The translations under genes and the position numbers were made by a program. From an uncultured Gammaproteobacteria bacterium (GTDB lineage Bacteria > Pseudomonadota > Gammaproteobacteria > JAADHQ01): a stretch of 36,890 nt of DNA. Positions 23,813 through 25,921 of the stretch are shown piece after piece. The notes under the pieces are model-generated. The model did no database searches. It was not told the origin of the DNA and saw only the letters and a list, made by a program, of their open reading frames with translations. The stretch covers positions 1 through 36,890 of the forward strand of contig CAMYJD010000025.1 in NCBI GenBank assembly GCA_947258655.1. The letters are read 5' to 3'. Position 1 is the stretch's first letter. The number at the start of each line of letters is the position of its first letter.

Positions 23813-24448
23813 ATGAAAAAGAAATTACTCGTCATCGTCATGCTTGTGGGTATAGTGATATCCATACCATTCTGGTCAAGCCAGTCCGACAGACCTGCTG
23901 GTGCATATCCGTGGCAGATCGATGTACATGCGGATGGTTTGTCCACTGTTTTTGGGCTGACTCTCGGTCGTACGACAATGGCCCAGGCACGAAGCGAGCT
24001 GGGTGAGGGTATGAAGCTGGCGTTGTTCAGTAGCGATAATGGTGATGATAGTGTAGAGATGTATTATTCGCATTTTAGCGCAGGACGCCTGTCAGGCCGG
24101 CTGGTTATTGTCGCCGATCTTGCTGCTGACACCATCGCCACGATGCGGCAACGGGCTGTGCGCTCGGGTGGTGTGCACAGTTTTCGTCTGCACAGGGATG
24201 ACCTGCCCGTGGTATTCCAGGCACCGGTGAAAACACTCACCTTTATCCCGGTCGTTGATCTTGACAGGGACATCGTTATCCAGCGCTTCGGTGAGCCGCA
24301 GGAGATTGTCAGCAGCAATGACAAGCTCAGTCATTATCTCTATCCGCAACAAGGTCTGGATTTGATCCTGGATAGTGATGGTAAAGAGGTCCTGCAATAT
24401 ATTGCACCGCGTGACTTTGCACAATTACGTGATCCGTTACGGCACTGA
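23813..24448 (+). CDS. Membrane-anchored protein of unknown function
   Basis: 211 residues. One N-terminal hydrophobic helix (LLVIVMLVGIVISIPFW) suggests an anchor or uncleaved signal, with the rest in the periplasm. Two similar halves can be seen. VFGLTLGRTTMAQARSELGEG and, later, VIQRFGEPQEIVSSNDKLSHYLYPQQGLDL both look like SmpA/BamE-like strand-turn elements with G-x-T/E patterns. I do not recognise a named family. It stands alone, divergent from the transporter gene. Confidence 0.7.
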   Translation: MKKKLLVIVMLVGIVISIPFWSSQSDRPAGAYPWQIDVHADGLSTVFGLTLGRTTMAQARSELGEGMKLALFSSDNGDDSVEMYYSHFSAGRLSGRLVIVADLAADTIATMRQRAVRSGGVHSFRLHRDDLPVVFQAPVKTLTFIPVVDLDRDIVIQRFGEPQEIVSSNDKLSHYLYPQQGLDLILDSDGKEVLQYIAPRDFAQLRDPLRH

Positions 24449-24609: not shown

Positions 24610-24638
24610 TTGACATATGTGACTGCCACTACTATTGT
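24610..24638 (+). promoter_or_regulatory. Promoter of the arsR-type/SRPBCC operon
   Basis: TTGACA at 24610-24615 is a perfect -35 box. It is followed after exactly 17 bases by TATTGT (24633-24638), four of six matches to -10. The -10 lies in the left arm of the 38-bp palindrome. The predicted transcript start is near 24645-24646, at the ATG. Confidence 0.65.
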
Positions 24639-24664
24639 TAACCATATGGTTAACAATAGTAGTG
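24627..24664. promoter_or_regulatory. Perfect 38-bp palindrome, likely autoregulatory operator
   Basis: The arms CACTACTATTGTTAACCAT (24627-24645) and ATGGTTAACAATAGTAGTG (24646-24664) are exact reverse complements with no loop. The centre is CCATATGG. The operator covers the -10 box, the expected transcript start and the first six codons of the repressor gene. Binding of the ArsR-family product here would block both initiation and elongation. Confidence 0.8.
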
Positions 24665-24987
24665 AACATCTAGATATCTTGTTTCATGCCCTGGCCGATG
24701 CCACGCGGCGGGGTATTTTGTCACGCCTGGCCAATGGGGTCATGTCAGTGAAGGAACTGGCTGAGCCCTTTGATATGTCAGCACCTGCTATCACCAAGCA
24801 TCTGAAAGTACTGGAAAAAGCGGGACTATTGAAAAGAGCGGTGGAGGGTCGGGTGCACCGCTGTTATCTGGTTCCCGAGGCTATTAACGATGCTGCCCGG
24901 TGGATTGAGTATTATCAGGAGTTCTGGAATAACAAACTGGATTCACTGGATCAGTACCTTAAGAATCAACCAACAAGGAGAGACTAA
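24646..24987 (+). CDS. ArsR-family helix-turn-helix repressor
   Basis: 113 residues from the ATG at 24646. The frame runs upstream to 24586, but that start would lie before the promoter, so the palindrome-centre ATG is preferred. The winged helix is typical: ILFHALADATRRGILSRLANG, VKELAEPFDMSAPAITKHLKVLEKAGLLKR and the wing VEGRVHRCYLVPEA. No metal-binding ELCVCDL-like cysteines are present, so it is not a classical arsenic sensor. It belongs to the subgroup paired with SRPBCC proteins. The signal is unknown. Its stop overlaps the next ATG (TAATG). Confidence 0.92.
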   Translation: MVNNSSEHLDILFHALADATRRGILSRLANGVMSVKELAEPFDMSAPAITKHLKVLEKAGLLKRAVEGRVHRCYLVPEAINDAARWIEYYQEFWNNKLDSLDQYLKNQPTRRD

Positions 24988-25457
24988 TGAATAATTGTGC
25001 GATTAAAGATGATTTCGCCACGCTGACCATCAGTCGGGTTTTTGCTGCCGATATCGAAACCGTATTCAAGGCATGGACGGACCCGGCGATGGTAGCAAGA
25101 TGGTTTGGGCCAGAAGGTGTGGAGACCAGTAGTACAAAAATTGATCTGCAAAAAGGCGGCAAATACGAGTTTATTTTACAGACTCCGGATGGAGAGGTCA
25201 GGCATTATGGTGAATATGTACTGATAGAGCCACCGGAAAAACTGGTGTTTACGTGGGTGCTGGATGTTGACAATCAGGCTTGTACCGGTAGTACCAGTCA
25301 GTTAACGGATACATTGGTAAGCGTTGATTTCAGAAGGGTTGGGGATTCGACTGAAATTGTCCTGACACATGAGCAATTACCTGACAGGAAGGCCTGTGAG
25401 GGACACCAGTTTGGCTGGACGGGCTGCTTTGATTCACTGTCTAAACTGTTGGTGTGA
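24987..25457 (+). CDS. SRPBCC / AHSA1-family protein
   Basis: 156 residues with the START-like fold of the Aha1 C-terminal family: LTISRVFAADIETVFKAWTDPAMVARWFGPEG at the start, the YGEYVLIEPPEKLVFTW strand pair, VSVDFR and a C-terminal helix with GWTGCFDSLSKLL. Such proteins bind hydrophobic small ligands; the substrate is unknown. An AAGGAGAG ribosome site precedes the ATG, and the overlap with the arsR-type gene means one operon under that repressor. Confidence 0.92.
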   Translation: MNNCAIKDDFATLTISRVFAADIETVFKAWTDPAMVARWFGPEGVETSSTKIDLQKGGKYEFILQTPDGEVRHYGEYVLIEPPEKLVFTWVLDVDNQACTGSTSQLTDTLVSVDFRRVGDSTEIVLTHEQLPDRKACEGHQFGWTGCFDSLSKLLV

Positions 25458-25543: not shown

Positions 25544-25577
25544 ACATGATTGCCTGATATGTAGCAGGCAATCATGT
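25544..25577. terminator. Long perfect hairpin between convergent genes
   Basis: ACATGATTGCCTG and CAGGCAATCATGT pair over 13 bases around an eight-base loop. It lies between the SRPBCC gene (plus strand) and the DsrE-like gene (minus strand), the usual place for a two-way terminator, though T tracts are weak on both sides. Confidence 0.55.
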
Positions 25578-25582
25578 TCACA

Positions 25583-25921
25583 TTAAAGCGTGATCACCTG
25601 GTCCGGCATATTGCCGGCCAGCGCGCCATACAGGTTAGGGAAACAGCCAATTGTCGCGCCATCGACCAGCTTGCCATCAATTTCCCGTTCATAGCAACAC
25701 TGGTCACAACCCATCAGTAGCATGCCTTTTTCCTTCGCAACTTTTGCCAGACGTTCGCCGAGTGGGTCGCCCTTGACCAGTACATAATTATTATCCTCAA
25801 AGAAAAACATTCCGACGACTTCAACGCCATGCGCATCTTCTTCGAGTTGAGGAAGGATCATTTTTCCCAGCTTGTATGAAACGGTGTGACCTTGGCTTGA
25901 AAAGATATAGGCTACTTTCAT
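25583..25921 (-). CDS. DsrE-like small protein with a cysteine cluster
   Basis: 112 residues with the DsrE/F fold pattern: VAYIFSSQGHTVSYKLGKMILPQLEEDAHG, VVGMFFFEDNNYVLVKG, then LGERLAKVAKEKGMLLMGCDQCCYERE and a C-terminal GATIGCFPNLYGALAG. DsrE relatives carry or sense sulfur on a cysteine; here GCDQCC and GCF offer four candidates. An AAGGAA ribosome site precedes the start. The partner and substrate cannot be told from the neighbourhood. The upstream bcp is on the same strand 72 bases away. Confidence 0.8.
   Translation of the reverse strand: MKVAYIFSSQGHTVSYKLGKMILPQLEEDAHGVEVVGMFFFEDNNYVLVKGDPLGERLAKVAKEKGMLLMGCDQCCYEREIDGKLVDGATIGCFPNLYGALAGNMPDQVITL

Follow-up and report, generated by a model that had tools for sequence, protein, structure and literature searches.

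AcuR, a repressor of the TetR family, controls its own operon acuR-acuI-dddL in Rhodobacter sphaeroides and is made from a leaderless message with its 5' end at the AUG; translation of an acuR fusion reached about 7.5% of that measured for acuI (PMC3017554). A leaderless autorepressor hence works in a proteobacterium, translated weakly compared with the next gene. Leaderless repressor messages are also reported for lambda cI and for tetR of Tn1721 (PMC3017554), and in Cupriavidus metallidurans, genes for transcription, an arsR among them, are over-represented among the leaderless messages (PMC7563307). Rv2034 of Mycobacterium tuberculosis is an ArsR-like autorepressor with a palindromic footprint that the paper numbers as -30 to +3 / -26 to +8 (PMC3338718).

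The locus described here lies in a window of 36,890 nucleotides (the whole stretch of DNA that was analyzed) from an uncultured Gammaproteobacteria bacterium. We consider it highly probable, from the sequence and its relatives, that this is an autorepressed two-gene ArsR-SRPBCC operon with a leaderless message, and that its operator extends from the -10 element across the start of transcription into the first codons. The coordinates are collected in Table 1.

Table 1. Features of the repressor locus, in window coordinates.
Feature	Position	Strand	Basis
-35 element TTGACA	24610..24615	+	sequence, promoter scan; TTGAC spacing in relatives
Left palindrome arm, non-coding	24627..24645		palindrome search
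-10 element TATTGT, within left arm	24633..24638	+	sequence, promoter scan; TAnnnT spacing in relatives
Proposed operator (symmetry kept in relatives, ±13)	24633..24658		per-position match rates, 70 loci
Operator half-sites TTAACC and GGTTAA; 4-nt center ATAT	24638..24643 and 24648..24653		sequence
Right palindrome arm, codons 1-6 (MVNNSS) plus one base	24646..24664		palindrome search, sequence
arsR-type repressor gene, 113 aa, proposed leaderless	24646..24987	+	Pfam HTH_20/HTH_5, NCBIfam NF033788, AlphaFold, Foldseek
Ribosome site AAGGAG of the SRPBCC partner gene	24975..24980	+	sequence
SRPBCC / AHSA1 partner gene, 156 aa	24987..25457	+	Pfam PF08327, E 3.4e-26, 92.3 bits

The Repressor and Its Partner

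The assignment of the repressor to the ArsR family, made at first from the sequence alone, agrees with the Pfam, NCBIfam and fold matches. Its ArsR-type helix-turn-helix scores above the curated cut-offs, as for ArsR/SmtB members: 47.4 bits for PF01022 (cut-off 22), 52.6 for PF12840 (27) and 74.3 for NF033788 (55). The AlphaFold model is a winged helix with a mean pLDDT of 92 and matches ArsR structures. The best Foldseek match, PDB 3f6o (RHA00566), is the best solved relative both in sequence and in fold; it is described by a structure entry only. SdpR (NF033789) is an autorepressor family with an ArsR fold. The repressor is not filed under it because its 59.1 bits remain under the family cut-off of 100. 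A cysteine-pair metal site is the mark of the classical ArsR/SmtB metal sensors and is not required for the wider family. No such pair is present in the repressor, which has a single cysteine (residue 73); it is therefore not filed as a classical metal sensor.

An AHSA1-domain gene directly follows the repressor, the stop of one and the start of the other overlapping as TAATG (24985-24989). The locus hence belongs to the AHSA1/SRPBCC-linked ArsR pairs. That the partner takes part in sensing is a guess from gene linkage. A link with defense systems was considered and set aside. The 12 PADLOC matches of the repressor cover its helix-turn-helix region, in Csa3, CasR, CARF and similar profiles, and the partner has no PADLOC match. 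Upstream, an open reading frame of 211 aa (23813-24448) matches nothing in Pfam or NCBIfam at E 0.001. Downstream, a second inverted repeat (25544-25577; 16-bp arms, 94%, 2-nt gap) sits between the SRPBCC gene and a convergent gene (25583-25921), with no T run after it.

Palindrome at the Start Codon

The longest perfect even palindrome of the window extends over 24627-24664. It is 38 bp long, with two arms of 19 nt, 100% complementary and without a gap, and the repressor ATG (24646) stands at its center. The next-longest has arms of 9 nt. From base composition, arms of at least 19 nt are expected 1.3e-7 times in the window and 1.3e-5 times in 3.48 Mb; a chance origin was rejected. The sequence-only reading had quoted the range 24610-24664. 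The perfect repeat around the start codon holds, as does the identity of the first codons with the right arm; the left part of that range is the -35 element and the spacer. The longest open reading frame of the repressor starts at a GTG, 60 nt 5' of the proposed ATG.

Promoter and Predicted Transcript Start

The two promoter elements are separated by a spacer of 17 nt, and the -10 element, located in the left arm as first read, ends 7 nt before the A of the ATG. This is the usual distance for a transcription start at that A. Judged by its consensus match, the promoter is weak (10/12, with 1.7 such sites expected in the 1251-bp stretch scanned); it carries weight because it is conserved in relatives, and not for the consensus match alone. 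No AGGA, GGAG or GAGG was read 5' of the repressor ATG. By geometry, that is, a promoter spaced for +1 at the ATG and no Shine-Dalgarno (SD) motif, the operon fits the leaderless autorepressor type, AcuR-like in its working. We propose that the transcript starts at or next to 24646 and that the message is leaderless; it may carry a leader of a few bases.

Homologues Selected by Protein Similarity

Relatives were picked by protein similarity only, because a choice by DNA was to be avoided. The set of 155 comprises 28 class loci, 27 phylum loci and 100 further places of the phylum list. These are the best-scoring listed places of two protein searches, and all are Pseudomonadota by the scope of the searches. 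Six matches without a locus, the window itself, one decayed copy and the lower part of the phylum list were left out. Dropping six entries without an ATG candidate and one duplicate gave 148. The last in-frame ATG before the domain was taken as the start, which is wrong in some rows (e.g., L199). Ten bases on each side of the 4-nt center were compared, and genes with at least 7 matches out of 10 were called symmetric.

Start-codon-centered symmetry is present in 58 of the 148 homologues, and in 0-4 of them at each of 18 centers displaced by 1-9 nt; the other 90 do not reach it at the chosen start. On these sequences, the ATG-centered design belongs to a large subfamily and not to the window gene alone. 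TTGAC is found 34 to 38 nt before the ATG in 45/58 symmetric homologues vs. 31/90 others (Fisher p 3e-7), and TAnnnT starting 13 nt 5' of the ATG in 32/58 vs. 5/90. The promoter spacing for +1 at the ATG, proposed by the sequence-only reading, is kept in relatives. The absence of a ribosome site before the repressor, claimed there as well, extends from the window to all 58 symmetric homologues; a motif precedes the gene in 10/90 others. For the symmetric pairs with a placeable partner start, the SD motif stands before the partner in 24/47 and before arsR in 0/47. The corresponding values for other pairs are 42/65 and 6/65, and random positions give 295/2960. An AHSA1 relative adjoins 54 of the 57 informative symmetric homologues and 67/89 others.

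These spacings bear on a reading in which the operator is as proposed, but the transcript starts upstream, so that the message holds the entire palindrome and a hairpin in the RNA masks the start codon as a further, translational level of control. The 38-mer indeed folds, as single-stranded DNA, into one perfect hairpin (-15.3 kcal/mol, z -8.6). Against this, the fixed spacing of TTGAC and TAnnnT to the ATG makes the left arm look like promoter, not transcript, and Rfam gives only sub-threshold hairpin look-alikes (best 32.6 bits vs. a cut-off of 80). With the -10 element inside the left arm at a conserved distance, an RNA hairpin or attenuator is unlikely, and we give an upstream start little credence.

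An inverted repeat further upstream (at least 7/8 matches) was found in 23 of the 90 non-symmetric homologues, compared with 1/90 after base shuffling. Since the start lies outside the repeat in these 23, the family has at least two layouts. L134, L138, L172, L186, L194 and L220 are of the other layout, with one or two like inverted repeats upstream and the ATG outside. Besides, a second operator-like repeat, AACCnnnnGGTTGAC, overlaps the -35 element (about -40 to -30 from the ATG) in L063, L067, L146, L150, L161 and L192; from this overlap, two sites may be occupied together.

Of six annotated plasmid relatives, those of Methylophaga (10), Azospirillum (9) and Croceibacterium (7) reach at least 7/10 around their annotated starts. 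The others score 6 (haloarchaeal) and 3 and 2 (two Nostoc). On the haloarchaeal plasmid (Natrinema; L292, start at 1001), the repressor of an ArsR-SRPBCC pair begins with MVEQ and shows this partial symmetry. In a genus-mate of the window organism (G043), a repressor homologue is 74% identical over residues 12-105 (L008, about 1600-1850). This is the decayed copy mentioned above: it has an internal TAA, no palindrome at its start and the same neighbor gene as the window. The 16-bp core of the palindrome is absent from the G043 genome.

The Proposed Operator Pattern in Other Genomes

Among 229 genomes of the class, four contain the 16-bp core, each a single time, and all four copies are at ATG-centered ArsR-type starts with TTGAC upstream. 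IMG/VR viral contigs served as a control and gave 20 stretches with this 16-mer; 16 have no symmetry beyond the query, and neither an ArsR start nor a match to the family HMM was found in the 20.

The pattern TATNNTTAACCATATGGTTAA, which consists of the promoter plus the core and leaves the right arm free beyond the core, was scanned in the genomes of 84,980 species. It returned 97 stretches. The family HMM places the start of an ArsR relative in 73 of them, in frame with the ATG in 71. One more (L035), missed by the HMM rule, was read by eye as an in-frame ArsR start, which brings the count to 72/97. The 71 HMM loci fall in 15 named phyla (3 loci unassigned), mainly Pseudomonadota (29), Bacillota (13) and Planctomycetota (8), and single assignments may be wrong because many of these loci are metagenome bins. 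An exact TTGAC lies 34-37 nt 5' of the ATG in 51/71. Between -16 and -4, not one of the 71 has an SD motif; with the range widened to -18, the motif is found in 4/50. A search for the same palindrome at arsR/SRPBCC loci had been suggested; the answer is its presence in many phyla. L034 (113) has TTGAC and, around an ATG, a palindrome with 15-bp arms, but an ArsR reading frame follows in neither direction. This may be a remnant or a target site.

In its own genome, the operator is single-copy at up to 3 mismatches of 26, with no further site beyond the operon. The regulon may therefore be the ArsR-SRPBCC operon alone. This single site also counts against the idea that the palindrome is the site of another regulator while the ArsR protein acts elsewhere. 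The pairing of site and repressor does come from comparison, and two more proteins of the genome match the repressor weakly (E about 1e-3). The site stands, though, on the start of this very gene family in the 72 stretches and in all four class genomes, and the half-site of symmetric genes is associated with the recognition helix of the repressor itself, as described below. We regard another regulator as very improbable and keep the repressor's own site as our reading.

Half-Sites and the Recognition Helix

Several half-sites occur among the symmetric genes. The largest classes are GGTTGA (21 genes, MVE/MVD), GGTTAA (14, MVK/MVN) and GGCTAA (7, MAN), followed by GGTTCA (4, MVQ), GCCTTA (2, MPY) and ten singles, including GCTTAA (MLN) and GGCTAT (MAI). 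The same half-site is found in the non-coding left arm, exactly or with few changes. Half-sites differ between subclades, and residues 2-4 differ along with them.

Covariation of the two arms was rejected as proof of constraint. It is strong in permutation: among 61 promoter-defined genes, the arms match at 6.52 of 10 positions, vs. 5.00 (sd 0.15) once they are exchanged between genes, a difference inflated because relatives share both arms. Once relatedness is controlled, it is not secured. Independent pairs on the tree give 29 for vs. 14 against over all 149 rows (p 0.03) and 10 vs. 5 over the 77 promoter-defined rows (p 0.3), and several controls with a shifted center are as high as the true center or higher (e.g., 12 to 3 at -3, 15 to 6 at +3); at single positions, the independent pairs were too few. 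The safe claim, from these sequences, is that several different half-sites exist and that the ATG-centered symmetry recurs among them.

Residues 1-3 of the repressor model have a pLDDT below 50, and the first helix begins at residue 6; the first residues may, thus, well be free to vary. In the reading preferred here, they (MVNNSS in the window) would for the most part follow from the operator sequence, and they lie in a tail predicted to be disordered.

The recognition helix predicted from the AlphaFold model extends over residues 46-58 and includes residue 51. With the window repressor added, the symmetric genes number 59. Among them, a C at +4, the first base of codon 2, goes with Q51 in 6/6, and other bases go with K or R in 53/53. 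Noticed after the fact and resting on two changes on the tree, this association is suggestive and not proof. When promoter-defined rows are taken regardless of symmetry, there are 5 exceptions to the K/Q rule, all with symmetry below 7, and the remaining rows pair a C at +4 with K 13 times and with Q 8 times. Such a failure outside the symmetric genes is expected if the codon there is not part of the operator. Two new patterns for the Q/C rule returned 25 stretches with 4 ArsR starts, all Q, and no new cases: the four were already in the set (L294=L224, L307=L213, L308=L175, L313=L247).

The association agrees with published contacts. Helix 4 of NolR has Gln56 at its N-terminal end, and this residue contacts specific bases; its counterpart in RexT, Lys50, is important for binding and presumed to touch guanine (PMC8960804). 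Residue 51 probably occupies this same position.

Length of the Arms

Match rates per arm position were taken from 70 loci with complete flanks, in which the search pattern had itself fixed the inner 8 positions and the left TAT. Beyond them, the two arms match in 59-81% of the loci at arm positions 9-12, in 43% at position 13 and in 20-39% from 14 to 30. Family symmetry hence ends near ±13, and the further six matching bases in each arm of the window are not required by the family. Arms of 21 bp are present in 2 of 71 loci.

One of these two loci, L112, was set against L110, a near relative. Between them, the promoter (-36 to -21) is 14/15 identical, the codons before the differing part 11/12 and those after it 48/51. 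Codons 5-8 share only 2/12 bases with L110 and mirror the left arm. This pattern looks like template switching between the arms, which would, by analogy, be a reasonable, unproven origin of the long arms of the window.

It could be supposed, further, that the symmetry is mostly mutational, produced by template switching at an imperfect repeat and without a regulatory role. Arm bases 14-19 of the window do lie outside the symmetry conserved in relatives, and the difference between L112 and L110 suggests a copying of one arm onto the other. Such a process accounts for the extra length, but not for the recurrence at one gene family in many phyla with a fixed promoter spacing. We consider it most improbable as a full explanation and retain an operator at the start codon.

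Proposed Mechanism

The palindrome, the promoter geometry, the lack of an SD motif, the gene pairing and the conservation of this anatomy across phyla are results of computation; around them, we infer repressor binding, autorepression, a leaderless transcript, weak translation and an inducer. An ArsR-fold dimer would bind the inverted repeat (core TTAACC-ATAT-GGTTAA, about 26 bp); conservation and the association with the recognition helix speak for binding and repression indirectly. The bound repeat would take in the -10 element, the point where transcription starts and the opening codons, and RNA polymerase would be shut out. On a signal, perhaps something met by the SRPBCC partner, the repressor would be released, and transcription would begin at or beside the A of the ATG, giving a leaderless message. 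The repressor would be translated without a Shine-Dalgarno sequence, probably poorly; the SRPBCC gene behind it has its AAGGAG.

A more general view, which has about an even chance of being right, is that of a widespread design where an autoregulatory operator dictates the N-terminus of its repressor. A change in the helix (e.g., residue 51 from K to Q) would alter both arms and rewrite residues 2-4 (V/A to L/P), template switching could copy non-coding promoter sequence into the codons or the reverse, and the second residue would label the operator.

If this holds, operator, start codon and N-terminus are one sequence, and the start of the gene would reveal which DNA is recognized by the members of a large and scarcely studied subfamily of repressors. 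Regulator-operator pairs would become predictable in many genomes and could serve as compact biosensor parts. The palindrome would also aid in placing gene starts, as here, where the longest frame opens upstream. It would, moreover, be a clear case of the first residues of a protein being set by the needs of the DNA.

Comparison with Known Systems

Lambda cI and the TetR protein of Tn1721 belong to other protein families, and their operators are not known to be centered on the start codon. The AcuR operon is similar to the present one in that the autorepressor comes first, the operator overlaps the promoter, and SD motifs precede the next genes but not the repressor. It differs by its TetR-family protein and by inverted repeats that lie in the 36 bp before the ATG and are not centered on the start codon, and no mention of an operator writing the N-terminus was found there (PMC3017554). 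The Rv2034 operator is likewise palindromic, with two 8-bp repeats and a 4-nt spacer (PMC3338718). Its half-site is another one, CCGTAAGT, and its palindrome lies before the start codon, if the paper's numbering runs from there.

In the open-licence literature, judged by titles, abstracts and passages, no account was found of a repressor family with an operator centered on its own start codon, nor an experiment on the window repressor gene or any symmetric relative. Leaderless repressors are already known, and so is an ArsR operator at the edge of the start codon. The combination of both, its spread and an N-terminus set by the operator look new.
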